Source: Candidatus Saccharicenans sp.
Lineage (GTDB): Bacteria; Acidobacteriota; Aminicenantia; Aminicenantales; Saccharicenantaceae
Direction of reading: 5' to 3'
NCBI GenBank assembly: GCA_026414545.1
Contig: JAOAIU010000048.1
Location: 1 to 64,000 of the forward strand
Length of the DNA: 64,000 nt
Every line of letters begins with the position of its first letter. The stretch's first letter is position 1. A program made the position numbers and the translations under genes. A model generated the notes under the pieces. It saw only the letters and a program-made list of their open reading frames with translations. It did no database searches and was not told where the DNA came from. Shown here piece by piece: positions 4,562 through 64,000 of the stretch.

Positions 4562-6130
4562 CTATTCCTCCGGCCGTCCGTATCCTCCGCCACCCGGGGT
4601 TTCAATCCTGAGAATGTCTCCAGCTTCCAGTTTGAGGTTGACCTTGGAACCCAGAGTTTTCCGGCGTCCCCTTCTGATCAACAGGTTGACTCCTGCCCGT
4701 CCGGGCAATCCTCCGGCCAGACCGTATGGTCGCAGTTTTCTTCTGTCAGAAATTATGGTCAGGTTGACCGGGACCTGAAACTGGTATTCCCTGATCAGCC
4801 CATCCCCGCCGCGTTGGCTTCCGGCACCTCCCGAGTTTTTTCTCAGAGCATATTTTCTGATTTTAATCGGCAGGTAATTTTCCAGGGCTTCGATCGGCGT
4901 GTTCAAGGAATTGGTCATATGACAATGGACACCGCTCAGTCCAGGCCGGAGAGACGAGGCTCCCATGCCTCCGCCGATGGTTTCATAATAAGCAAAATTA
5001 GTGCGGGTCTGGGGGTTGAAGCCGCCAAAGGCCAGGTTGTTCATGGTCCCCTGACTGGCCGCCGGAATTTTCCCGGGCAGGGCCAGAGCCAGGGCACCGA
5101 GCAAGACGTCCACTATCCTCTGTGAGGTCTCCACATTACCTCCGGCTAGGGCTGAGGGAAAAGTGGCATTGACCACCGAGCCTTCTGGCGCGATTATCTT
5201 TACCGGTTTCATCAGACCGGTATTGAAAGGTATATCTTCTTCCACCAGCGACCTAAAAACATAAAGCACAGCCGAATAGGTAACGGCGTAATTGGCATTG
5301 ATGGAACCGGCTACCTGCTCCGACGAATCGCTGAAATCCACCCAGGCCTCATCATTTTTTATGGTCAGGGCCACCCGCACCTTGACCGTCTTCCGGTTGA
5401 CGCCGTCGTCATCCAGGTAATCCTCAAATTCGTAACGACCGTCGGGGATGGCCTTGATGGTCTCCCTGAGAATTCTTTCAGTGTAATCCTGAATCTGGTC
5501 AGCATAAAGGGTAAGTTTTTCCAGGCCGTAGCGGCTCAGCATTTCACCCAGACGCCTGGCCCCGCGGGAATTGGCAGCCACCTGGGCCAGAATATCACCC
5601 CTTCTCTCCTCAGGTGTGCGGACGTTGGCCAGGAACAGGCTCAGAGCCTCTTCGTTCAGACGACCCCGGCGGTAAAGCTTCAAGGGCGGGATAATCACCC
5701 CTTCCTGAAAAATCTCAGTGGCCAGCGGCATAGAACCGGGAGTGATGCCACCAACATCCGAATGATGGGCCCGGTTGGCCACCAGAAAGCAGAGGTTGCC
5801 ATCAACAAAATAAGGCTGGATGCAGGTGATGTCGGGCAGGTGAGTGCCGCCCTTATAAGGGTCATTAAGAATGACTACATCGCCCGGTTCAAAATCCACA
5901 GCTTGAAGGGCAGCCTGAACCGAGAGGGGCATGGCCCCCAGGTGAACCGGGATATGGGAACCCTGGGCAAAAGTTTCGCCCAGCCTGGTGAACAAGGCAC
6001 AGGAGAAATCTCTTCTTTCTTTGATGTTGGGTGATAAAGCCGTCCTCTGAAGTACAGCCGCCATTTCCTCGGTTATAGAGGTGAATAAATTCTTGAAAAG
6101 TTCGAGTTCTATCGGGTCAAACTGGTTCAT
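4562..6130 (-). CDS. hyuB: Hydantoinase B / oxoprolinase family protein (HyuB)
   Basis: The 522-residue B-type subunit partners the HyuA protein in ATP-dependent opening of cyclic amides such as hydantoins or 5-oxoproline; relatives also serve as acetone carboxylase subunits. Family features include NDPYKGGTHLPD (around 92), HHSDVGG (around 122), GGNVETSQR (around 327) and a Gly-rich end (GGGGYG). I chose the ATG at 6130, which follows the hyuA stop by two bases; a TTG two codons earlier overlaps that stop. The substrate cannot be read from sequence. No transporter or dihydropyrimidinase gene is adjacent. Confidence 0.85.
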   Translation of the reverse strand: MNQFDPIELELFKNLFTSITEEMAAVLQRTALSPNIKERRDFSCALFTRLGETFAQGSHIPVHLGAMPLSVQAALQAVDFEPGDVVILNDPYKGGTHLPDITCIQPYFVDGNLCFLVANRAHHSDVGGITPGSMPLATEIFQEGVIIPPLKLYRRGRLNEEALSLFLANVRTPEERRGDILAQVAANSRGARRLGEMLSRYGLEKLTLYADQIQDYTERILRETIKAIPDGRYEFEDYLDDDGVNRKTVKVRVALTIKNDEAWVDFSDSSEQVAGSINANYAVTYSAVLYVFRSLVEEDIPFNTGLMKPVKIIAPEGSVVNATFPSALAGGNVETSQRIVDVLLGALALALPGKIPAASQGTMNNLAFGGFNPQTRTNFAYYETIGGGMGASSLRPGLSGVHCHMTNSLNTPIEALENYLPIKIRKYALRKNSGGAGSQRGGDGLIREYQFQVPVNLTIISDRRKLRPYGLAGGLPGRAGVNLLIRRGRRKTLGSKVNLKLEAGDILRIETPGGGGYGRPEE

Positions 6131-6132
6131 GC

Positions 6133-8142
6133 TCAACTCGCCCTTTCAATTATCAGATTCAGGAAACGGTCGGTAGTGGCCACCTGACCCGGGGGTACAA
6201 AGGTGGTAGACTCAGCATCAACGATCAGAACCGGACCGGGCAGTCTGTTTCCGGCCAGCAGACGAGAACGGTCGATAACCTCAACCTGGTACTTATCCTT
6301 TTCATAATAAAGCCATTGTTTTTTTATCCTGGCTGAGTCCGGAATTTCTGGCCCTTCCTGATAAGGTCTTAGTTTAACCTTTGGAGCCTTGGCCACCGCC
6401 CGGACCCTCAGGTTGACTATTTCTACCGGCCGGTGCTGATGGTAATAAGAAAACAGGCGGCGGTGCTGGCGGTGGAACTCATTGAGGTAGCTGAATTTAT
6501 GGAAGGCTCCGGAACGATAGGGAATGGTCAATTCGTGAGATTGGCCGAGGTAGCGCAGGTCCAGGTGTCTTTCAATCAGAACCTCATCCGGATTAAATCC
6601 ATCTTCTGCCATCTCGGCCAGAGCCTGGCCAGCCATTTCGGCAAAAGCTCTTTCTAATTCTTCCGGGTCGGTCTTCTGGGCCAGCCGGATTAAAGACCGG
6701 GAATAATCCTTGACCGAATCGGCCAGCAGCAACCCCAGGGCCGAAAGCACCCCGGCAAACCTGGGAATGATGACCCGGGGAATCCTCAGGTGTTTGGCTA
6801 TTTCCACCGCATGCAGCCCACCCGCTCCACCGAATGATACCAGGGAGAACTGGCGGGGATCATAACCCCTTTCTACGGAAATGACCCTGATAGCCTTCTC
6901 CATGCTGGCGTTGGCAATGGCCACCACCCCGAGAGCGGTTTCGATCAGACTGCGGCCAATTTTTCGGGCCACCGTTTCCAGGGCCTTGCGGCTTCTTTCC
7001 GGGTATATTTTCATACGACCGCCCAGGAAAAATTCAGGGTCGAGCCGGCCAAGGCAGAGATTGGCATCGGTAACTGCCGGAATATCGCCCAGTCCGTAAC
7101 AGGCTGGACCGGGATTGGCCCCGACACTCTCCGGACCCACCCTCAACAGACCTCCTTTGTCCACATAAACAATTGACCCGCCGCCGGCCCCGACCGAATG
7201 AACATCTACCATGGGCAGGCGAACCGGAAAATCGCCCACCAGATTTTCTGTTGACATTTTAATCCGGCCGTCTATAAGAGAGACATCAGTCGAGGTCCCG
7301 CCCATATCAAAACTGATTACCTTGCGAAAGCCAGCCGAGCGGGCCAGGTGATAGGCGCCGACCACACCGCCGGTGGGCCCGGACAGAATGGTCTTGATCG
7401 GTTCCTGTCTGGCCCTTTCCGCTGAGATGTAGCCTTCGTTGGACTGCATGACCTTGAGCTGGGCTCCGGACATTTTTTCCTGCAGCTGACCCAGATAGCG
7501 GTCCATGACCGGCAGAAGATAGGCATTGATGACCGTGGTGGAGGCCCTCTCAAATTCCCGGTATTCAGGCATCAGGCTGGACGACGAGGAAACCTTGAAC
7601 CCGGCCTGTCGCAGTTTATCAGCCACGGCCCGCTCATGTTCCGGATTAGCATATGAATGCAGCAAACAGACAGCCACAGCCTCAACCTTCTCTTTCTTAA
7701 GAATACCTATAATTCGGTCCAGGTCCTTTTTCTGAAAGGGTTTTTCCACCCTCCCCCCGGCCTGAATTCTTTCTTCCAAACCAAAGCACAGGCCGGGAGA
7801 GATTATATGGCTGCGTTCTTCTCCCTTCAAGCTGTACAGGTGTTTTCTGGTCTGGCGACCGATGAATATAATATCTTCAAAGCCGGCGGTGGTGATAAAG
7901 GCGATACGGCCGCCTTTTTTTTCCAGTAAAGCATTAGTGCCGACGGTGGTGCCATGAATTATCAGGGCCCGGCTGGCCGGCAGGAAGTCGGCCAGTCCCT
8001 TCAGGATGGCCTCCGAGGGATCGGCCGGGGTGGAAGGAACCTTCCTGACAGTGAGGCGGCCGCCTGAATAAATCACAAAATCGGTAAAGGTACCACCCGA
8101 ATCTATTCCGATTCTCAAATCAGTTTTTCTGGTTTTTGCCAA
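6133..8142 (-). CDS. hyuA: Hydantoinase A / oxoprolinase family ATPase subunit (HyuA)
   Basis: A 669-residue ATP-binding subunit of the hydantoinase/5-oxoprolinase family. Actin-like nucleotide motifs are visible: IGIDSGGTFTDF near residue 12, GTTVGTNALLEKKG near 65, SGPTGGVVGA near 255 and FDMGGTSTDVSL near 278, with SFGGAGGLHA near 450. The start is a TTG at 8142; no ATG fits before the IDSGGT motif and an AGGAG lies about ten bases upstream. A strong promoter precedes it and hyuB follows directly, so the pair forms a two-gene operon. A role in recycling 5-oxoproline from peptide or glutathione breakdown would suit this peptidase-rich genome, but this is inference. Confidence 0.87.
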   Translation of the reverse strand: MAKTRKTDLRIGIDSGGTFTDFVIYSGGRLTVRKVPSTPADPSEAILKGLADFLPASRALIIHGTTVGTNALLEKKGGRIAFITTAGFEDIIFIGRQTRKHLYSLKGEERSHIISPGLCFGLEERIQAGGRVEKPFQKKDLDRIIGILKKEKVEAVAVCLLHSYANPEHERAVADKLRQAGFKVSSSSSLMPEYREFERASTTVINAYLLPVMDRYLGQLQEKMSGAQLKVMQSNEGYISAERARQEPIKTILSGPTGGVVGAYHLARSAGFRKVISFDMGGTSTDVSLIDGRIKMSTENLVGDFPVRLPMVDVHSVGAGGGSIVYVDKGGLLRVGPESVGANPGPACYGLGDIPAVTDANLCLGRLDPEFFLGGRMKIYPERSRKALETVARKIGRSLIETALGVVAIANASMEKAIRVISVERGYDPRQFSLVSFGGAGGLHAVEIAKHLRIPRVIIPRFAGVLSALGLLLADSVKDYSRSLIRLAQKTDPEELERAFAEMAGQALAEMAEDGFNPDEVLIERHLDLRYLGQSHELTIPYRSGAFHKFSYLNEFHRQHRRLFSYYHQHRPVEIVNLRVRAVAKAPKVKLRPYQEGPEIPDSARIKKQWLYYEKDKYQVEVIDRSRLLAGNRLPGPVLIVDAESTTFVPPGQVATTDRFLNLIIERAS

Positions 8143-13189: not shown

Positions 13190-14866
13190 TTACTCTGAGC
13201 TCAGGGCTCTGGTCATTAACTTTTCCAGCTTTTGAACGCTGTTTTCCAGCTTTTTCTTCAGCTGTTCAGCCCTGGCCACGGTCCTTTTCTTGAACTTTTC
13301 GTCCTTGATTCCCGGAAGGTTTATACGGACGTTGTAGTAAGCGCCCAGTCCAGAGCTTCGGGCAACCAGACCGGCCACTCCGGCATCGCTGACCGAATTT
13401 TTGTTTCCCCGGCTGGCGGCCAGGGTAGCCAGCTCCACCAGTTCCAGAGATTTTTCCAGGACAGACAGGGGGACCAGGGTTGCTTCCTTGTTAGCATTTT
13501 CAATGGCTTCTTCTCTTTCCTTTGCTTGCTCTTCTGTGGTTTTTGGCAGGCGATAGGCCTCCATGACCCGGTTAAAAGCCCTGGTATCCTGGTCTACAGC
13601 CTGAAGCAGCTCATCCTTCAACTTCTGGCCCTTCAGGGCTACCATCTTCATCTCCTCAAAAACCTGTTCGTAACCTTTCTTGCCGACGGTCAGGTTGGCT
13701 ACCATGGATGAAAGAGCAGCCGACAGGCTGCCGCAAAGAGCAGCCACGCTGCCACCACCCGGAGCCGGGGAATCCATGGATAGTTCATCAACAAATTCAT
13801 TCAATCCAAGCCGGATAAGTGATTTTTCGTCGGGAGGAAACTGGTATTCAATTATTTTTTTAGCCGGGTCAAAGGGAACGATGTCGCTTAAGCCCAGAGA
13901 CCTGACCGCTATCCTGACCAGCTCTTTATTCGGGACCCCAGGACTCTTGCCCTGTTTTTCCAGGTAATGGCGGCCGGCCATCAACAGGGCTTCCAGGGGA
14001 ATCAGACCGACCAATTCGCTTCCGGTCACCCGAACCCCCATCTTCTCGGCCAGCCGGCAAGCCTCATCAAAGACGACATGTGGCGGGGTAATCTTATAAT
14101 TGGTAAAATTGATGGAAATCTGGGCGATGCCGTATTCGTCAATATACCAGCCGACGGCCTTAACCGCCTTGAACTTGCCGGGAACCTTGACCGGCTGCCC
14201 TTTCTTGTCATAAACGATGTTACCCTTTTTATCTCTTTTCGGTCTTCCGCTTTCCCTGAGGTGAGAAGCGATTTCCTGAGCAATCTTTCTGTCCCTGGTA
14301 TTTAGGTTAATGTTATAGGCAATCAGAAACTCCCTGGCTCCGATGACCGTGGCCCCGGCTCGCGGATTGAAGACCGCCGGACCATAATCCGGCTTCCAGT
14401 TGGGGTCCTGGAGTTTATCGGCCAGACCCTCGTATTCTCCAGCCCTGATACTGGCCAGATTTTTTCGTTCAGGCCTGGTGGCTGCTTCTTCATAAAGATA
14501 AACTGGAATGCCCAGCTCTTCACCCACTCTTTGGCCGAGCTCGTTGGCCAGCCTGACGCAATCCTCCATGGTAACTCCGGAAACAGGGACAAACGGACAG
14601 ACATCGGTGGCTCCTATCCTGGGGTGAGCTCCCTTATGCTGACTCATATCGATTAGTTCAGCCGCCCTGCTGATGGCCTTGAAGGCAGCCTCCTTTACGG
14701 CCTCGGGCGAGCCGATGAAAGTGACCACCGTCCGGTTGGTAGCTTCTCCGGGGTCCACATCCAGGAGCTTGACGCCCGGAGTTGATTCTATTTCGCGAAC
14801 AATAGCCTGAATCTTGGCCCGGTCGCGACCTTCGCTGAAATTGGGTACGCACTCAACGATTTTCAT
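13190..14866 (-). CDS. ftcD: Bifunctional glutamate formimidoyltransferase / formimidoyl-THF cyclodeaminase
   Basis: Transfers the formimino group from formiminoglutamate (histidine breakdown) to tetrahydrofolate, then removes ammonia to give 5,10-methenyl-THF. The 558-residue protein is a fusion. The transferase part (about 1-330) starts MKIVECVPNFSEGRD and includes GAHPRIGATDVCPFVPV. The cyclodeaminase part (about 350-555) starts DELSMDSPAPGGGSVAAL and includes GNKNSVSDAGVA. The fused form is the vertebrate layout and is also found in some anaerobic bacteria; many bacteria split it. The start ATG lies inside the last codons of the upstream M16-family gene, a 14-base overlap. No hut genes are in the window, so it may also serve one-carbon supply. 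Confidence 0.93.
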   Translation of the reverse strand: MKIVECVPNFSEGRDRAKIQAIVREIESTPGVKLLDVDPGEATNRTVVTFIGSPEAVKEAAFKAISRAAELIDMSQHKGAHPRIGATDVCPFVPVSGVTMEDCVRLANELGQRVGEELGIPVYLYEEAATRPERKNLASIRAGEYEGLADKLQDPNWKPDYGPAVFNPRAGATVIGAREFLIAYNINLNTRDRKIAQEIASHLRESGRPKRDKKGNIVYDKKGQPVKVPGKFKAVKAVGWYIDEYGIAQISINFTNYKITPPHVVFDEACRLAEKMGVRVTGSELVGLIPLEALLMAGRHYLEKQGKSPGVPNKELVRIAVRSLGLSDIVPFDPAKKIIEYQFPPDEKSLIRLGLNEFVDELSMDSPAPGGGSVAALCGSLSAALSSMVANLTVGKKGYEQVFEEMKMVALKGQKLKDELLQAVDQDTRAFNRVMEAYRLPKTTEEQAKEREEAIENANKEATLVPLSVLEKSLELVELATLAASRGNKNSVSDAGVAGLVARSSGLGAYYNVRINLPGIKDEKFKKRTVARAEQLKKKLENSVQKLEKLMTRALSSE

Positions 14867-17913: not shown

Positions 17914-19170
17914 ATGGAATTTGAAGTCAAGGATTTGAAGCTGGCAGAAGAAGGTCGGCGCCGCATAGAATGGGCGGCCCGGTCTATGCCCGTTCTGAAC
18001 AGGATCAGGGAAAAATGGGAGAGAGAAAAACCCCTGGCTGGCCTGCGCCTGGCGGCCTGCCTTCATGTTACTTCTGAGACGGCCAACCTGATGCTGACCC
18101 TTAAGGCCGGTGGAGCCGACGTCCGTCTGGCTGCTTCCAACCCGCTCAGCACCCAGGACGAGGTGGCTGCGGCCCTGGTTAAATTCGAACGAATCCCGGT
18201 CTTTGCCATCAAGGGTGAGGACCAGAAGAGTTACTACCGGCACCTGGAAAAGACGCTTGCCCATCGGCCTCAGGTCACCATGGACGACGGGGCTGACCTG
18301 GTTTCTACCCTTCACCAGAAAAAGACCCGGATGCTGCCTGAAATAATCGGCGGGACGGAAGAGACGACCACCGGGGTAATCAGGCTGCGCAGCATGGCCG
18401 AAAATGGAGTCCTGGGCTACCCGATTATTGCCGTCAACGATGCCCTGACCAAACACCTGTTTGATAACCGTTACGGCACTGGTCAGAGCACCATCGATGG
18501 CCTCCTGCGCTGCACTAATATCCTGCTGGCCGGGTTGACCGTGGTGGTCTGCGGTTATGGCTGGTGTGGCAAGGGAGTGGCCACCAGGGCCCGCGGCGCC
18601 GGGGCCAGGGTGATCGTCTGCGAGGTGGACCCCCTGAAAGCTCTGGAAGCCCTCATGGACGGCTTCCAGGTGAAGACTCTATCGCAAGCAGCCGGTGAGG
18701 GAGATGTCTTCATCACCGTAACCGGAAATAAGAACGTCATCCGGGCCGAGCATTTTCGCCAGATGAAAGACGGGGCCATCATCGCCAACGCCGGCCATTT
18801 CAACGTGGAGATTGACCTGCCAGCCCTGAAGGCGTTGTCCCGGAGCCGCCGGACGATACGGCCGTTCGTGGAGGAATACCGCCTGGCCCGGAATAAGCGC
18901 TTGTTTGTCCTGGCCGAGGGACGGCTGATTAACCTGTCCGCAGCCGAAGGGCACCCGGCCATGGTCATGGACATGAGCTTTGCCAATCAGGCCCTGAGCG
19001 TACTCTACCTGAAAGAGCACGGCCGCGACCTGGAAAAACATGTCTATCCCGTGCCCGAAAATATTGACCGGGAAATCGCCCGGCTCAAACTGGAATCGAT
19101 GGGCATAAGAATAGACCGGTTGACAACCGAACAGAAAAGATACCTGAAGGGCTGGCAGGAAGGCACCTGA
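17914..19170 (+). CDS. ahcY: S-adenosylhomocysteinase
   Basis: Hydrolyses S-adenosylhomocysteine to adenosine and homocysteine, NAD-dependent, cytosolic. 418 residues, the common prokaryotic length. Visible marks: [14 protein letters not shown] near 46, [14 protein letters not shown] near 76, DDGADLV near 124, [10 protein letters not shown] near 146, the NAD fold [14 protein letters not shown] near 208 and [14 protein letters not shown] near 345. A GGCGAGGAG site precedes the ATG. Single gene between divergent and convergent neighbours. It would supply homocysteine, the acceptor of the methyl-transfer module at the right end of the window. Confidence 0.95.
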
Positions 19171-27215: not shown

Positions 27216-28019
27216 TCAGTCTTCTTTCTGCCCCGACCGGGCCCAGGCCAGAAACTTTTCCCTGGCCCCGGGCCGATTGTTCAGGAACTCGCTGACGATA
27301 ATCGTAGCCTGAAAATCAGGATGCAGCGGGTCGGCAATCACCGCGTCAAGGCCATGTCCGATGAGATTACTGAGGAAGGTCAGGTTGACCACCCTCCTCC
27401 GTGGCAGACCGTAAGAAATATTGCTCAACCCGGCCACGGTCTTTATACCCGGAAATTCCTTCCTGGCCAGCAACAGGCTTTCGAGGAAGAGCCGTCCGGC
27501 TTCGGGCTTCACGGCCAGCGGCCTCACCAGCAGGTCCAGGAAGATGTCATCCTTCCCGAGCGAGGTCTGGCTGAAAAGCCTGTTGAGGACCTTCCCGGCA
27601 ATGCTTATCGTCCGGTCTGGAGTCTCGGGGAAGCCGGCCTCGTCGAAACAGGAAACGATAACCCTGGGCCGGTATTCTCCAACCAGCGGAATTATTTCTT
27701 CCATTTCCTTTTGCTTGCCGGGTATTGAATTCAAAAGCGCCTGGCCGCGGTGAACTCTCAACCCCGCTTCCATGGCAGTCGGATTGCTGCTGTCTATAGA
27801 AATCGGCAGCGAAACTCTGTCCTGAAGAACCGGAATTACCCGGGCCAGTACTTCGGGTTCCCGGTCCAGCAGGGTGGAGGCATTGAGGTCAAGATAGGAA
27901 CAACCTGCCCTCTGCTGTTCTAGGGCCAGTTCGACCAGGAAACCGTGGTCTCCTTTGAGCAGGGCCTCCTCCACTGGCCTGCGGCTGGAATTTAAAAGCT
28001 CTCCTATGATGAGCAGCAT
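27216..28019 (-). CDS. Methyltetrahydrofolate-type methyltransferase (pterin-binding domain)
   Basis: A 267-residue TIM-barrel protein of the pterin-binding family (DHPS/MeTr/AcsE). It begins LLIIGELLNSSRRPVEEAL, with the N in the position that contacts the pterin in MeTr proteins, and has YLDLNAST near 42, PISIDSSNPTAMEAG near 72 and VAGLSNISYGLP near 190. The SNxSxGLP motif is typical of corrinoid-dependent methyl-THF methyltransferases and argues against folP. A corrinoid partner is not adjacent, but one lies at 60958-61632. It would link methyl-THF to a B12 protein; the actual partner is inference. It is the last gene of the serA-nifS run. Confidence 0.8.
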   Translation of the reverse strand: MLLIIGELLNSSRRPVEEALLKGDHGFLVELALEQQRAGCSYLDLNASTLLDREPEVLARVIPVLQDRVSLPISIDSSNPTAMEAGLRVHRGQALLNSIPGKQKEMEEIIPLVGEYRPRVIVSCFDEAGFPETPDRTISIAGKVLNRLFSQTSLGKDDIFLDLLVRPLAVKPEAGRLFLESLLLARKEFPGIKTVAGLSNISYGLPRRRVVNLTFLSNLIGHGLDAVIADPLHPDFQATIIVSEFLNNRPGAREKFLAWARSGQKED

Positions 28020-59483: not shown

Positions 59484-60965
59484 TCAGGTCTGAACTTCCG
59501 GAACCGCGGGCAGCTCTTTCAGGCCGCAGGAGGCGGCACAGGCTGTCATGATTTTCTTCAGCTCTCCGGATTTTTCCAAACAGAGCCCGGGCCTCTGGTA
59601 AAGGGATAACCTCCTGGTAATTTCCCGGCTAGCCCTCTGAAAAATATCCAGCCGACCCAGCGCTGTCCAGGTATCGTAGACATCGCGGTCCAGGACCGAG
59701 GAGAAATAATGCTCCTGCCGGTACCATTTCCTGGTGTGGGACAGAACCAGGAAATTGAAATCCGGGCCGAGCTCGGCAAATAGATGCCGGGCCAGCGGCT
59801 TTTCCCTGAGGGCTATCCCTCTGACCAGCCTCAAGCACTGGCCGCAGATGTCGTTGTCAATGACCAGCTTTTCCAGACTCTGGGTGCTCTCGAAATTCAG
59901 CATTCCAGCGCCAGAAACCACATTGATTCCAGCCAGGGCGGCCAGAGTAGCTCCCATGGCCGTTTCCAGCCCAGCCTGAGCGTCAACCAGCTTGGAATCG
60001 CTCAAGCCCATGTAAGCGTGAGTGGGCAGGTTGAGATGTTTAGCCACCTGGGCGAAGGCACAATCAATCATCATGGTTTCCGGGGCACCCATGGGAGTGG
60101 TGCCCTTCCTCATGTCAAACCCGGCTGGGGAACCGCCGAAAATGACTGGAGCCCCCGGCCTGGCCAGCTGGCAGATGACCAGCCCGCCGAAACTTTCGGC
60201 CAGCTGCTGGACCAGGGTACCAGCCAGAGTTACGGGAGAAGTGGCCCCGGTCAGGCCCATCGGTATCAGCTCCGAGGGTACCCCCATCCGGCTACAGTCA
60301 ACAAGACTCTGAGCAGTCAAACGGCTCCATTTAAGGGGAGGGGAGGGACAGGCATCAAATATGGCCAGGGGTTTTTCCGCCAGTCGTTTTTCATCTCCCC
60401 GCACCGCCACCAGCAGGTCCAGCATGGGCCTCAGGCTTTCCACTCTGAAAATTCCGGTGACGAAAGGCTTTCGGCAGAAGAGCAGTCCCAGGTAAAGCCG
60501 GTAGATGTCGGCAATTTCCTTGGGAACGTCGGTGCTGACCAGGGCGGTGCTCTGAAAGTCCAAATTTTCCAGTGTTTCAACCAGCCTGTAAAGTGTAACC
60601 AGGTCCGAAGTCCGGGCTTCCCTTTCTTTCTGAGTTTCCGAGTCCAGAATCTTGATGGCCGCAGAGCCCGGGTCATAGTGCACTTCATCCTGCCCCACCA
60701 GGTATTCCCGGCTGCCGTCCAGGTCAAAGAGCCTGATTTCTGAGGGGCAGGTCTTCAGGCTCTGTTCCACCAGGTCTCTTTTAATATAGACCCTGTACCT
60801 GGCCCGGTCTATTTTCTGGCCGGCATCCTCCAGGAGCTTCAGGGCTTCCTCATTTTCAACAAATAAGCCCGTTTCTTCCAGCAGTTCAAAGGCCTCGTCA
60901 ATAATCTGTTCAACCGCTTCCTGGCTCAAGAACCTGACCCGGGGCCTGAGCACCTCTTCAGCCAT
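59484..60965 (-). CDS. MttB superfamily methyltransferase, non-pyrrolysine
   Basis: A 493-residue TIM-barrel enzyme of the trimethylamine methyltransferase (MttB) superfamily. LSQEAVEQIIDEAFELLEETG opens the family fold; DPGSAAIKILD near 98, IPMGLTGATSPVTLAGTLVQ near 237, and HAYMGLSDSKLVDAQAGLET near 315 follow. The reading frame has no in-frame TAG, so it is not a pyrrolysine-type MttB. Members without pyrrolysine demethylate quaternary amines such as glycine betaine or carnitine. The donor here is not identifiable by eye. Strong GGAGGG site; it overlaps the corrinoid gene by 8 bases. Confidence 0.88.
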   Translation of the reverse strand: MAEEVLRPRVRFLSQEAVEQIIDEAFELLEETGLFVENEEALKLLEDAGQKIDRARYRVYIKRDLVEQSLKTCPSEIRLFDLDGSREYLVGQDEVHYDPGSAAIKILDSETQKEREARTSDLVTLYRLVETLENLDFQSTALVSTDVPKEIADIYRLYLGLLFCRKPFVTGIFRVESLRPMLDLLVAVRGDEKRLAEKPLAIFDACPSPPLKWSRLTAQSLVDCSRMGVPSELIPMGLTGATSPVTLAGTLVQQLAESFGGLVICQLARPGAPVIFGGSPAGFDMRKGTTPMGAPETMMIDCAFAQVAKHLNLPTHAYMGLSDSKLVDAQAGLETAMGATLAALAGINVVSGAGMLNFESTQSLEKLVIDNDICGQCLRLVRGIALREKPLARHLFAELGPDFNFLVLSHTRKWYRQEHYFSSVLDRDVYDTWTALGRLDIFQRASREITRRLSLYQRPGLCLEKSGELKKIMTACAASCGLKELPAVPEVQT

Positions 60966-61632
60966 GACTCCCTCCCCGGCCGGACATCAGACTCCGGGCC
61001 ACGGAGACCGCCTGAACGGCGCTTTCTCCATAACCGTCGGCCCCGATTTCCCGGGCAAACTTTTCGGTAACCGGGGCTCCGCCGACCATCACTTTAATTT
61101 TATCCCTCAGGCCCCGGCTGACCAGCAGGTCCACTACCTTCTTCTGGTTGAGCATGGTGGTGGTCAGCAGGGCCGATAGGGCAATAATATCCGCTCGCTC
61201 CCGCTCGGCCATGTCCACAAATTTATCAATCTTAACATCGGCCCCCAGGTCAATGACCTCAAAGCCGGAAGCCCGCAACATTGAGGCCACCAGGTTCTTG
61301 CCGATATCGTGAATATCGCCTTCAACCGTGCCGATGATCACCCGACCGGCCGACTTCAAACTCTGCCCGGCCGATTTCAGGGCTTCCTGCAGTACAGTCA
61401 TGGCCGCCTTCATGGCCTCAGCTCCGGCAATGAGCTCCGGCAGGAAATAATCGCCGGCTTCCCACAGACGGCCCACTTCCTCGATGGCCGGGACACAGGC
61501 CTTCTCGATGACCTGAAGCGCCTCCAGCCCAGAGGCCAGGGCTTTCCTGGCCAGGGGACCAGCTTCATCAACCTGGCCCTGAATTATCGATTGTTTTAAG
61601 GAATGAAGAAGGTTATTTAACTCTGGTTTCAT
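60958..61632 (-). CDS. Corrinoid (B12-binding) methyl carrier protein, MtbC/MttC type
   Basis: A 224-residue two-domain carrier. The N-terminal helical cap (about 1-90, GDYFLPELIAGAEAMKAAM) is followed by the cobalamin-binding Rossmann domain: GDIHDIGKNL with H108 as lower axial cobalt ligand, SALLTTTMLNQK near 145 and VGGAPVTEKFAREIGADGYG near 182. It shuttles methyl groups on cobalt between MttB and a second methyltransferase. I chose the ATG at 61632, with GGAGG eight bases upstream, rather than one six codons earlier. Confidence 0.94.
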   Translation of the reverse strand: MKPELNNLLHSLKQSIIQGQVDEAGPLARKALASGLEALQVIEKACVPAIEEVGRLWEAGDYFLPELIAGAEAMKAAMTVLQEALKSAGQSLKSAGRVIIGTVEGDIHDIGKNLVASMLRASGFEVIDLGADVKIDKFVDMAERERADIIALSALLTTTMLNQKKVVDLLVSRGLRDKIKVMVGGAPVTEKFAREIGADGYGESAVQAVSVARSLMSGRGGSHG

Positions 61633-61656
61633 CCAGGATTCCTCCGCCAATCTCGT

Positions 61657-62553
61657 TCAACCGATTTTATCAGAAAACTGGACAATTTTTTCCGAAATTT
61701 TTTTTATGTATTCTGGTGAGGTTCCGCAGCAGCCGCCGATGACTCTGGCCCCGGCCCCTATCAGTCCCGGAATATGATCAGCATATTCATCCGGGCCCAG
61801 CTGGTAAAAGGTGGAACCATCCGACCTGACCTGTGGCTGTCCGGCGTTGGCCTGGGCTATCAGCGGCTTTTCCGACAGAGACCGAAAGGCCTTTATCAAC
61901 CCGACCATGTCCGCCGGGTTCAGGGTGCAGTTGGCCCCGAAAGCTTCCACCTCATTCTCCTCCATGGCCCGGACAAAGGCCTCGGGCGACACTCCCATCA
62001 TGGTGTAGTAGCCGCGTCGGGTCAGACTAAAAGTCATGGTCACAAAGACCGGAAGAGAAGAGGTTTCTCTAGCCGCCCTTAAAGCCATCAGCGCCTCTCT
62101 CAGGTCATACTGGGTTTCTATCAACAGAAAGTCGACTCCGCCCGCGGCCAGGCCTTCAACCTGTGGCCGGAAAGCTTCCACCAGCCTGCCTTCGGTCAGG
62201 TCGCCAACCGGTTTTAAGAATTTGCCCGTTGGCCCGATGCTTCCGCCGATATAGCCACCTTCAGGACAGACACTGCGGGCCAGCCGAGCAGCCTTCAGGT
62301 TCAGTTCAAAGGTTCTGTCTTCCAGCCCATAACCGGCCAGCTTGAGGGTATTGCCTCCGAAAGAATTGGTCAGGACGGCCCGCGAGCCGGCTTCAAAATA
62401 AGAGCGGTGGATTGAGGCCACGGCTTCGGGCTTTTCTTCATTCCAGGCTTCCGGGCAGTGACCTGGAGGGAGCCCGACCCGAAACAATTCGGTGCCCATG
62501 GCTCCGTCCAGTAGAAGAATCTGGTTTTCTGTTAGCTTCTTTATATCAAGCAT
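61657..62553 (-). CDS. Homocysteine S-methyltransferase domain protein (MetH N-terminal-like)
   Basis: A 298-residue zinc-dependent barrel matching the N-terminal domain of cobalamin methionine synthase. LLDGAMGTELFRVGLPPG near 14, TNSFGGNTLKLAGYGL near 62, and zinc ligands C209 (GANCTL) and C275/C276 (IGGCCGTSP). There is no folate, B12 or activation domain, so it needs an outside corrinoid protein, which is the next gene 24 bases downstream. It should pass methyl groups from the corrinoid to homocysteine to make methionine. The ATG at 62553 lies after GGAGGG and inside the end of the reactivase gene. Confidence 0.9.
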   Translation of the reverse strand: MLDIKKLTENQILLLDGAMGTELFRVGLPPGHCPEAWNEEKPEAVASIHRSYFEAGSRAVLTNSFGGNTLKLAGYGLEDRTFELNLKAARLARSVCPEGGYIGGSIGPTGKFLKPVGDLTEGRLVEAFRPQVEGLAAGGVDFLLIETQYDLREALMALRAARETSSLPVFVTMTFSLTRRGYYTMMGVSPEAFVRAMEENEVEAFGANCTLNPADMVGLIKAFRSLSEKPLIAQANAGQPQVRSDGSTFYQLGPDEYADHIPGLIGAGARVIGGCCGTSPEYIKKISEKIVQFSDKIG

Positions 62554-64000
62554 CTTTTTCCCTCCAGTAGCTTCGGCCAAGGCTCAGGGCCTTGAGGAAT
62601 TCGCTTTGAAAATCTTTCATGGCCGCCAGGGAAACGGGCTGAACTAGGACAGGAAGTCTGGCCACAGCCTTCCTGGCTTCCCCGCTCATGAGCATCAGTT
62701 CTGCCCCGGCCAGGGAAGCATTGCCGGCAAAAATGATCTTCCGGCGGGGAAGGGGAGGGAGAAGGCCAACGGAGATACACTGACCAGGGTCGACCGAGCT
62801 GCCAAAGACTCCTGCCAGGTAAATGCCGTCCAGTTCGGCCCAGTCCATCCCGGCAGAACGCAGCAAGAGCCGCATTCCACTCTTGATGGCAGCCAGGGCC
62901 AGCTGCAGTTTTCTAATGTCAAGCTGGCTCAGGGCCAGTCCCGGGGCCACCGCAATTTCAGACCGGCCTGCGGCTATTCTCCCCGAAGACTGTAACAGAC
63001 CGGCCTTCAATGACCCGGCCAGAACTCCCAGCAGGCCCGAACCGCAGAGTCCGGATGGCTTGAGCTGGCCTATCGTCCGGTACTCAAACCTACCATCAGA
63101 CCACCTTGCGTATTCAATCGCCCCGGCGACGGCTGGTTGTCCGCAGGAAATTCCGCTGCCCTCAAAGGCCGGGCCAGCGGCAGTAGAAGCGACCATGATT
63201 TTTCGGCCCCGCTTCAGGACTATTTCTCCGTTAGTTCCGAGGTCCAGGTAAAGATAATTGCCGGTCCTGTTCAGAAGTCCAGTATAAATCAGCCCGGCTG
63301 AAATATCACCGCCGACAAATCCGCCCAGGTTGGGGCTGATGAAAACCATGGCCCGGGGATTAACCCGAAGCTGAACCGAGGAAGCCAGGACCGGGTCATG
63401 AGACATGAAGACCGGCTTAAAGGGCGCCCGCCCCAGGGAATCAACCGGTTTATTAAGGAACAGATGGTTCATGACCGCATTGCCGGCCAGGCAGACGGCA
63501 TAAATCCACCGGGGTTTGATTGCGGCTTCCCGGACCAGGACTTCTGTCAGATTGCTGATTGATTTAAGGGCGGCCAGCCGAAGTTTCTTCAGGTGGCCAG
63601 GTTGGCCAGTGGCCAGGCCAACCCGCGAAATAAGGTCGGCTCCAAAGGCAGCCTGCAGGTTGGCGGCACTGGCCGAGGCCAGAATTTTTCCATTGGACAG
63701 GTCAAGAAGCCGGGCTGAGACGGTGGTCGTTCCAAGGTCCAGAGCCAGACCGAAAACCCTGTCATCGGTGCGACCAGGCTCCAGGTTCAGCAGTATTCTA
63801 TCATCATAAATAACGGCCGTGGCCTGGCCTGTCAGGAGGCCCCGGCTTCTAAGTCCGGGCAGCACTGCCGAAGCAGAAGCCAGTTCCTTGAGGCCGAGGC
63901 TGGACTTGATGGCCGACAGCAGTCTTTTTTCTACGGATAAATCTTCCGCTGAGAAGCGAAGCACATATTTTTTTACCATCGGTTTGAAATCACTAAGAGC
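62546..64000 (-). CDS. Corrinoid reactivation protein (RACo-like, ASKHA ATPase domain), 5' end cut by window
   Basis: The visible 484 residues cover a linker and an ASKHA actin-like domain: GLALDLGTTTVSARLLDL near residue 83, MNHLFLNKPVDSLGRAPF near 165, FISPNLGGFVGGDISAG near 215, LDLGTNGEIVLKRGRK near 245 and GLCGSGLLGV near 317. RACo-type proteins return inactive Co(II) corrinoid to Co(I) using ATP and an N-terminal 2Fe-2S domain. The ATG at 63979 is probably internal: the frame is open to the window edge and reads ALSDFKP-MVKKYVL, like the linker after the ferredoxin domain of RACo. So the Fe-S domain should lie just outside. It overlaps the next gene by 8 bases. Confidence 0.85.
   Translation of the reverse strand, partial: ALSDFKPMVKKYVLRFSAEDLSVEKRLLSAIKSSLGLKELASASAVLPGLRSRGLLTGQATAVIYDDRILLNLEPGRTDDRVFGLALDLGTTTVSARLLDLSNGKILASASAANLQAAFGADLISRVGLATGQPGHLKKLRLAALKSISNLTEVLVREAAIKPRWIYAVCLAGNAVMNHLFLNKPVDSLGRAPFKPVFMSHDPVLASSVQLRVNPRAMVFISPNLGGFVGGDISAGLIYTGLLNRTGNYLYLDLGTNGEIVLKRGRKIMVASTAAGPAFEGSGISCGQPAVAGAIEYARWSDGRFEYRTIGQLKPSGLCGSGLLGVLAGSLKAGLLQSSGRIAAGRSEIAVAPGLALSQLDIRKLQLALAAIKSGMRLLLRSAGMDWAELDGIYLAGVFGSSVDPGQCISVGLLPPLPRRKIIFAGNASLAGAELMLMSGEARKAVARLPVLVQPVSLAAMKDFQSEFLKALSLGRSYWREKDA

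Follow-up and report, generated by a model that had tools for sequence, protein, structure and literature searches.

A corrinoid operon of Candidatus Saccharicenans as a probable dismantled methionine synthase supplied with methyl groups by an MttB-family methyltransferase

To which acceptor does the MttB-family methyltransferase of Candidatus Saccharicenans sp., an uncultured fermenting bacterium, pass its methyl groups? The gene lies near the end of a 64,000-nucleotide stretch of DNA (assembly GCA_026414545.1, contig JAOAIU010000048.1, positions 1 to 64,000; hereafter the window). It is one of four adjoining genes on the minus strand, in the order RACo-HMT-Corr-MttB, which were assigned from open reading frames and Pfam and NCBIfam families as follows.

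59484..60965, (-): MttB, a non-pyrrolysine methyltransferase of the MttB superfamily, 493 aa (PF06253, 4e-89)
60958..61650, (-): Corr, a free-standing methyl-corrinoid protein, 230 aa from a TTG start (PF02607, 5.5e-21; PF02310, 1.5e-32)
61657..62580, (-): HMT, a MetH-type homocysteine S-methyltransferase, 307 aa from a TTG start (PF02574, 6e-71)
62546..64000 in the window, (-): RACo, a RACo/AcsV-type ATP-driven corrinoid reductive activator (PF14574, 6e-62; PF17651, 3e-48; N-terminal Fer2)

On the sequence evidence given below, the operon is quite probably a dismantled corrinoid-dependent methionine synthase, in which methyl groups would enter via MttB instead of from folate. Gene order, families, catalytic motifs, conservation and the lack of alternatives, at the sensitivity used, were read from the sequences themselves.

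A first-pass annotation of the window had described four contiguous genes for an MttB enzyme, a corrinoid carrier, a homocysteine methyltransferase and a RACo-type reactivase, with 8-base overlaps at two junctions, and both statements were borne out. The MttB ATG (60965) overlaps the Corr stop (60958), and the HMT ATG (62553, GGAGGG upstream) overlaps the RACo stop (62546); both 8-base overlaps depend on the choice of ATG starts with good Shine-Dalgarno sequences. With the start at ATG 62553, HMT comprises 298 aa rather than 307. For Corr the likely start is ATG 61632, which gives 224 aa. The gene for RACo crosses the window end and occupies contig positions 62546-64351 (601 aa in all). The four-gene operon recurs in each of the five Saccharicenans genomes and in three genomes of a sister genus of the family, and is therefore not a chance arrangement. 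In the fifth genus member (G201) the contig carrying it is short and ends within RACo. A second MttB gene, truncated and 77% identical, was seen at the end of contig C17 of the same genome (L132 5246-5863) and may be a true second copy or the result of strain mixing.

MttB scored 377 bits against TIGR02369, below the cut-off of 525. Its frame is open, with no in-frame TAG, and a leucine aligned with the pyrrolysine of 7xcl. The nearest solved structures are those of MtgB (2qne, 9yce). It is proposed from sequence to act as a methyl-donor:corrinoid methyltransferase. Corr scored above the TIGR02370 cut-off, and its motif GDIHDIGKN (DxHxxG) aligned with 1y80 and 7xcn. HMT gave 188 bits to Thermotoga MetH (1q7m) versus 65 bits to human betaine-homocysteine methyltransferase (BHMT), and 234 bits to PRK07534, under its cut-off of 338; its three zinc cysteines (NC and GGCC) were invariant across 18 aligned proteins. 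RACo matched RACo 3zyy over its length (295 bits), with the 2Fe-2S N-terminal, middle and C-terminal ASKHA domains all present. The operon contains no methyl-tetrahydrofolate (methyl-THF; pterin) module and no MetH activation domain, for which RACo stands instead; the activation domain was not searched for elsewhere in the genome.

The Rfam family PYLIS_3 was found above its gathering threshold inside mttB (59906-60005, minus strand), and also in mttB genes of L094, L201, L204 and L213, all without TAG. A pyrrolysine enzyme was rejected, given the lack of TAG in MttB, and the match reflects mttB homology. The PYLIS_3 model seems to detect such homology in general, so that the family can mislead annotation.

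Alternative methionine routes were sought in the host genome (2.52 Mb, 93% complete). The cluster HMT is its only PF02574 protein, MttB its only PF06253 protein and Corr the only methyl-corrinoid protein found; the remaining B12-binding proteins were assigned from translations and neighbours as a glutamate mutase subunit and B12 radical-SAM-like enzymes. No PF01717 protein (MetE, core-MetE or MesA-D type; COG0620) was present in the genome, nor was a full-length MetH, for which the first-pass annotation had suggested a search. Each of the five Saccharicenans genomes encodes exactly one PF02574 protein, always in the operon. No methylenetetrahydrofolate reductase (MTHFR) was detected in any of the five with PF02219. 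A diverged MTHFR was rejected as well, as a profile built from the diverged enzymes of the sister genus and family f4, which gave 7e-173 on its home sequences, had no match in the genus. Chance loss through incompleteness of a metagenome-assembled genome (MAG) was likewise rejected, the gene being missing from all five. Acetyl-CoA synthase (PF03598) was absent among 26 genomes of the class, and a Dehalococcoides-like methyl source via that enzyme is therefore unlikely. At the sensitivity used, the operon thus appears to be the only methionine synthase recognised by sequence in Saccharicenans.

The relatives differ in these respects. The sister genus carries the operon plus a MeTr-MTHFR pair elsewhere in the genome (MeTr, methyl-THF:corrinoid methyltransferase homologue), and one of its genomes (G170) has an additional 71-aa PF02574 fragment. 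Class mates without MttB (families f5 and f8) encode a MetH of 800 aa together with a fusion of HMT and MTHFR. HMT has changed position within Aminicenantes: in three families it adjoins MeTr, in others it stands alone, and in this family it is part of the operon. In a 100% complete genome of the same phylum (G161, locus L050) the cluster HMT is the only PF02574 protein, no MTHFR was found and the only PF00809 protein is dihydropteroate synthase (DHPS); MetE was not searched for there. The folate route seems to be altogether absent from this genome. In the sister genus, as in family f4, MeTr adjoins a short diverged MTHFR of 263-267 aa (L120 3122-4847, L121, L123; PF02219, approximately 1e-9 to 1e-12).

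For this MttB subfamily, gene neighbourhoods were compared at 96 non-redundant loci, drawn from a set of 80 in GTDB genomes together with the loci of the phylum. Neighbours were counted within 4 kb of MttB on the same strand; many contigs were short. Corr was found in 74 loci, HMT in 37, RACo in 38, a MetH activation domain in 38, and MeTr and MTHFR in none. Among the 49 loci with full flanks, HMT was present in 20 and a reactivase in 41. HMT-bearing clusters occurred in Heimdallarchaeota, Krumholzibacteria, Latescibacteria, Zixibacteria, KSB1, one Coprothermobacterota bin and several acidobacterial families; Chloroflexota loci had no HMT nearby. Other MttB subfamilies of the same phylum adjoin MeTr (L045, L088), in the classical methyl-to-folate layout.

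In the surrounding orders and classes the MttB-Corr unit is accompanied by RACo or by an adjoining free-standing protein of 200-270 aa. This protein was identified as a MetH activation domain by PF02965 matches and by a profile match to T. maritima TM0269 (1j6r) at 9e-19. For its AlphaFold2 model (predicted local distance difference test score 92), all 18 Foldseek matches at E<0.001 were methionine synthases containing or being the activation domain. Its gene lies between Corr/HMT and MttB in L094, L098, L201, L213, L217 and others, and the protein carries cysteines near the C-terminus (Acidobacteriota, Asgard archaea, Krumholzibacteria, Latescibacteria). Some loci hold both reactivators, which thus do not strictly exclude each other. 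The activation domain beside the set is the strongest independent sign that it works on homocysteine, because part of MetH has been kept by gene association despite the lack of a fused MetH. The comparison made in the first-pass annotation, in which the last three genes act like a dismantled methionine synthase with an ATP-driven reactivase, gained support from this domain standing in the reactivase's place in relatives, from the MetH-like HMT, from the lack of MTHFR and acetyl-CoA synthase in the genus and from the lack of MetH and MetE in the genome itself.

Trees were made for the methyltransferases. A placement of MttB in its superfamily, also suggested in that annotation, was obtained from a quickly built tree, in which some branches are long: the 93 rows of the subfamily form a single clade (SH-aLRT 100). 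Desulfitobacterium hafniense MtgB lies outside it and grouped with MttB proteins of the Sinorhizobium meliloti mtg locus and Terrarubrum. Cluster HMTs grouped with free HMTs of Aminicenantes (96/91); MetH, the HMT-MTHFR fusions and alphaproteobacterial MtgE fell outside this group. The MttB clade and the HMT clade each span Bacteria and Asgard archaea. Over 26 loci, the MttB and HMT distances in the trees were correlated with r = 0.89 and the MttB and Corr distances with r = 0.75, 0 of 2000 permutations being as high. Together with the lack of alternatives in the genome, the activation domain in relatives and the loci without folate genes, this makes transfer from MttB through the corrinoid protein to homocysteine the best reading.

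We infer the donor class, the direction of transfer, the interactions of the partners and the essentiality of the operon as follows. MttB would demethylate a small methylated amine and methylate the cob(I)alamin of free Corr. HMT would subsequently move the methyl group from CH3-Co(III)-Corr to homocysteine, yielding methionine. Homocysteine would be regenerated from S-adenosylhomocysteine by the following enzyme, its putative supplier as judged from sequence.

17914..19170, (+): SahH, S-adenosylhomocysteine hydrolase, 418 aa (PF05221, 2e-66; PF00670, 2e-56)

Accidentally oxidised cobalt would be re-reduced to Co(I) by the ferredoxin-domain RACo with ATP, doing the job of the activation domain in relatives. 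The fuller proposal is that this is a folate-independent, B12-dependent methionine synthase fed by a nutrient methyl group (from a methylated amine or amino acid) and put together independently of marine MtgBCDE; it would be common to Bacteria and Asgard archaea and would be the sole methionine synthase of Saccharicenans. It is given an even chance. If it is true, widespread uncultured anaerobes make methionine, and hence S-adenosylmethionine (SAM), without methyl-folate, and need B12 and an external methylated nutrient. Genome-based prediction of auxotrophy would change, as such hosts would be called methionine auxotrophs or their MttB would be read as catabolic. A new class would be added to the folate-independent methionine synthases, and the frequency of methylamine-type genes in fermenters not known for growth on methyl groups would be explained in part.

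The window contains two further genes that bear on folate.

27216..28019, (-): MeTr, 267 aa (PF00809, 4e-20)
13190-14866: formiminotransferase-cyclodeaminase, handling methenyl-level C1 units of folate

Several observations weigh against entry of methyl groups through MttB to homocysteine without folate. MeTr lies 32 kb from the operon, is a PF00809 protein distinct from DHPS, has 4o0q, 2yci and 2e7f as its best PDB matches, retains the pterin-site motifs and is kept in all five Saccharicenans genomes. Some methyl-THF is thus probably used, and folate would be a normal donor if an MTHFR has escaped recognition. The first-pass annotation had MttB replacing the folate domain; this stood in so far as the operon has no pterin module, but with MeTr intact the replacement may be incomplete. 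The clade contains no characterised MttB among the tree rows, and MttB-HMT co-diversification could come partly from vertical inheritance within phyla. MAG completeness was 90-93%. The folate-methyltransferase negatives do not cover the MtgA/MtrH type (PF02007 was not searched for), and the alternatives checked were synthesis routes, methionine uptake not being among them. SAM, S-adenosylhomocysteine and cobalamin riboswitches numbered 0 at gathering thresholds in the window and 20 related loci, which gives no tie to methionine or B12.

As MeTr has been kept and may supply Corr with methyl-THF, the main rival is a two-input hub like Ruegeria MtgBCDE. Corr would exchange methyl groups with MttB, HMT and MeTr, with methyl-THF (from an unrecognised MTHFR or salvage) as the main donor and MttB as an optional catabolic input. 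Besides the retention of MeTr, this model draws on the f3, f7 and f9 relatives, in which HMT adjoins MeTr and MttB-Corr is located elsewhere (L100-L102), and on R. pomeroyi, in which MtgC and MtgD serve both purposes (PMC12478193). Against it, neither MTHFR profile had a match in the five genus genomes, MeTr stands beside the cluster in 0 of 96 loci, and G161 has neither MeTr nor MTHFR. The hub is considered unlikely. In the preferred reading, with MttB as the main entry, MeTr may feed methyl-THF into Corr as a minor or salvage input. The retention of MeTr in a genus without detectable MTHFR leaves the source of its methyl-THF unexplained.

A second rival would separate HMT from the rest. HMT alone would be a betaine-, dimethylsulfoniopropionate (DMSP)- or S-methylmethionine-homocysteine methyltransferase, and MttB, Corr and RACo a demethylation system whose acceptor is encoded elsewhere. 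The PF02574-type Bmt of the Phaeobacter inhibens split synthase does take betaine and DMSP cofactor-free in vitro (PMC12366255). HMT is, however, far nearer to MetH than to BHMT by the bit scores given above, its start overlaps the RACo stop within a corrinoid operon, and the sets of other lineages carry a methionine-synthase activation domain, which a cofactor-free enzyme would not need. This rival is very improbable. Equally remote is an ordinary catabolic MttB system of the MtgABC type that passes methyl groups to THF with HMT as a passenger: most characterised bacterial MttB-family systems do so and MeTr is present in trans, but without MTHFR the methyl-THF formed would not be oxidisable by a known route, MeTr or MTHFR is adjacent in 0 of 96 subfamily loci, and HMT is the only homocysteine methyltransferase found.

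The principle of a dismantled synthase is already known from MtgBCDE. In R. pomeroyi, MtgC takes part both in the demethylation of glycine betaine and in methionine synthesis; methionine formation requires the folate module MtgD, and the organism also has MetF (2025, PNAS; PMC12478193). As in MtgBCDE of R. pomeroyi, the P. inhibens split synthase and the S. meliloti locus, an MttB-family enzyme, a free corrinoid protein and a PF02574 enzyme would share methyl groups here, with separate reductive activators; MtgBCDE usually replaces MetH. Unlike MtgBCDE, the present cluster has no folate module, its genus has no MTHFR, and no pterin gene lies within 4 kb of MttB in the 96 loci. MttB and HMT are 28% and 38% identical to S. 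meliloti MtgB and MtgE, belong to other subfamilies and do not group with them as orthologues. The activators in MtgBCDE are RamA and DUF1638, and the hosts are aerobic proteobacteria. The first-pass annotation had suggested that the system would be a B12-dependent counterpart of BHMT, and had overlooked the Ruegeria and Sinorhizobium precedent. What is new is an apparently folate-free variant. No description of an MttB-HMT-activation-domain cluster was found in full-text literature beyond the MtgBCDE work, many subscription papers lying outside this coverage. An alphaproteobacterial pairing of MttB and HMT was also seen on a Terrarubrum plasmid (L227 7992-10530), where bmt directly precedes an MttB gene, with sarcosine oxidase genes alongside.

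Other systems were compared in the same manner. MetH, including the Thermotoga and Clostridia form with a separate activation protein, has homologous HMT, corrinoid and, in relatives of this operon, activation modules; here there is no fused protein, MttB stands for the methyl-THF module and, in this genus, RACo stands for the activation module. Desulfitobacterium MtgABC and Eubacterium MtpB, MtcB and MtyB likewise combine a non-pyrrolysine MttB enzyme, a corrinoid protein and a RACo/RamA-type activator, but those systems methylate THF, whereas the acceptor enzyme here is HMT; MtgB of MtgABC moreover belongs to a different MttB clade. The MetE family, which is unrelated, also includes methionine synthases that work without folate (PMC7857596). 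The core enzymes MesA-D and core-MetE make methionine without folate, with a corrinoid protein as the likely donor for MesA-C (PMC7857596, PMC7005905); unlike HMT, they belong to PF01717/COG0620, which has no member in this genome. The net chemistry would be that of BHMT if the donor is betaine, but BHMT needs no corrinoid and HMT lies outside the BHMT branch.

The first-pass annotation had a quaternary amine as the possible methyl donor; more broadly, the donor is perhaps a small methylated amine, for instance betaine or an amino acid with an N-methyl group. In 23 loci, for example at L162 3107-4600, the cluster is accompanied by a gene for an APC-type amino-acid permease (PF13520), which in most of them immediately precedes RACo and reads in the same direction. 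The permease may import the methyl donor, and hints at an amino-acid-like donor or methionine traffic. As a pointer to the donor, transporters gave only this APC-type permease beside relatives' operons, with no assignable substrate; no permease stands beside the operon in Saccharicenans.

A hydantoinase B/A pair (PF02538, PF01968) at 4562-8142 on the minus strand could bear on the supply of methylated amines. Some N-methylhydantoinases yield sarcosine. Glutamate mutase/methylaspartate pathway genes of the host genome (L115; G000:C24:18000-28000), assigned from translations, suggest fermentation of glutamate or histidine.

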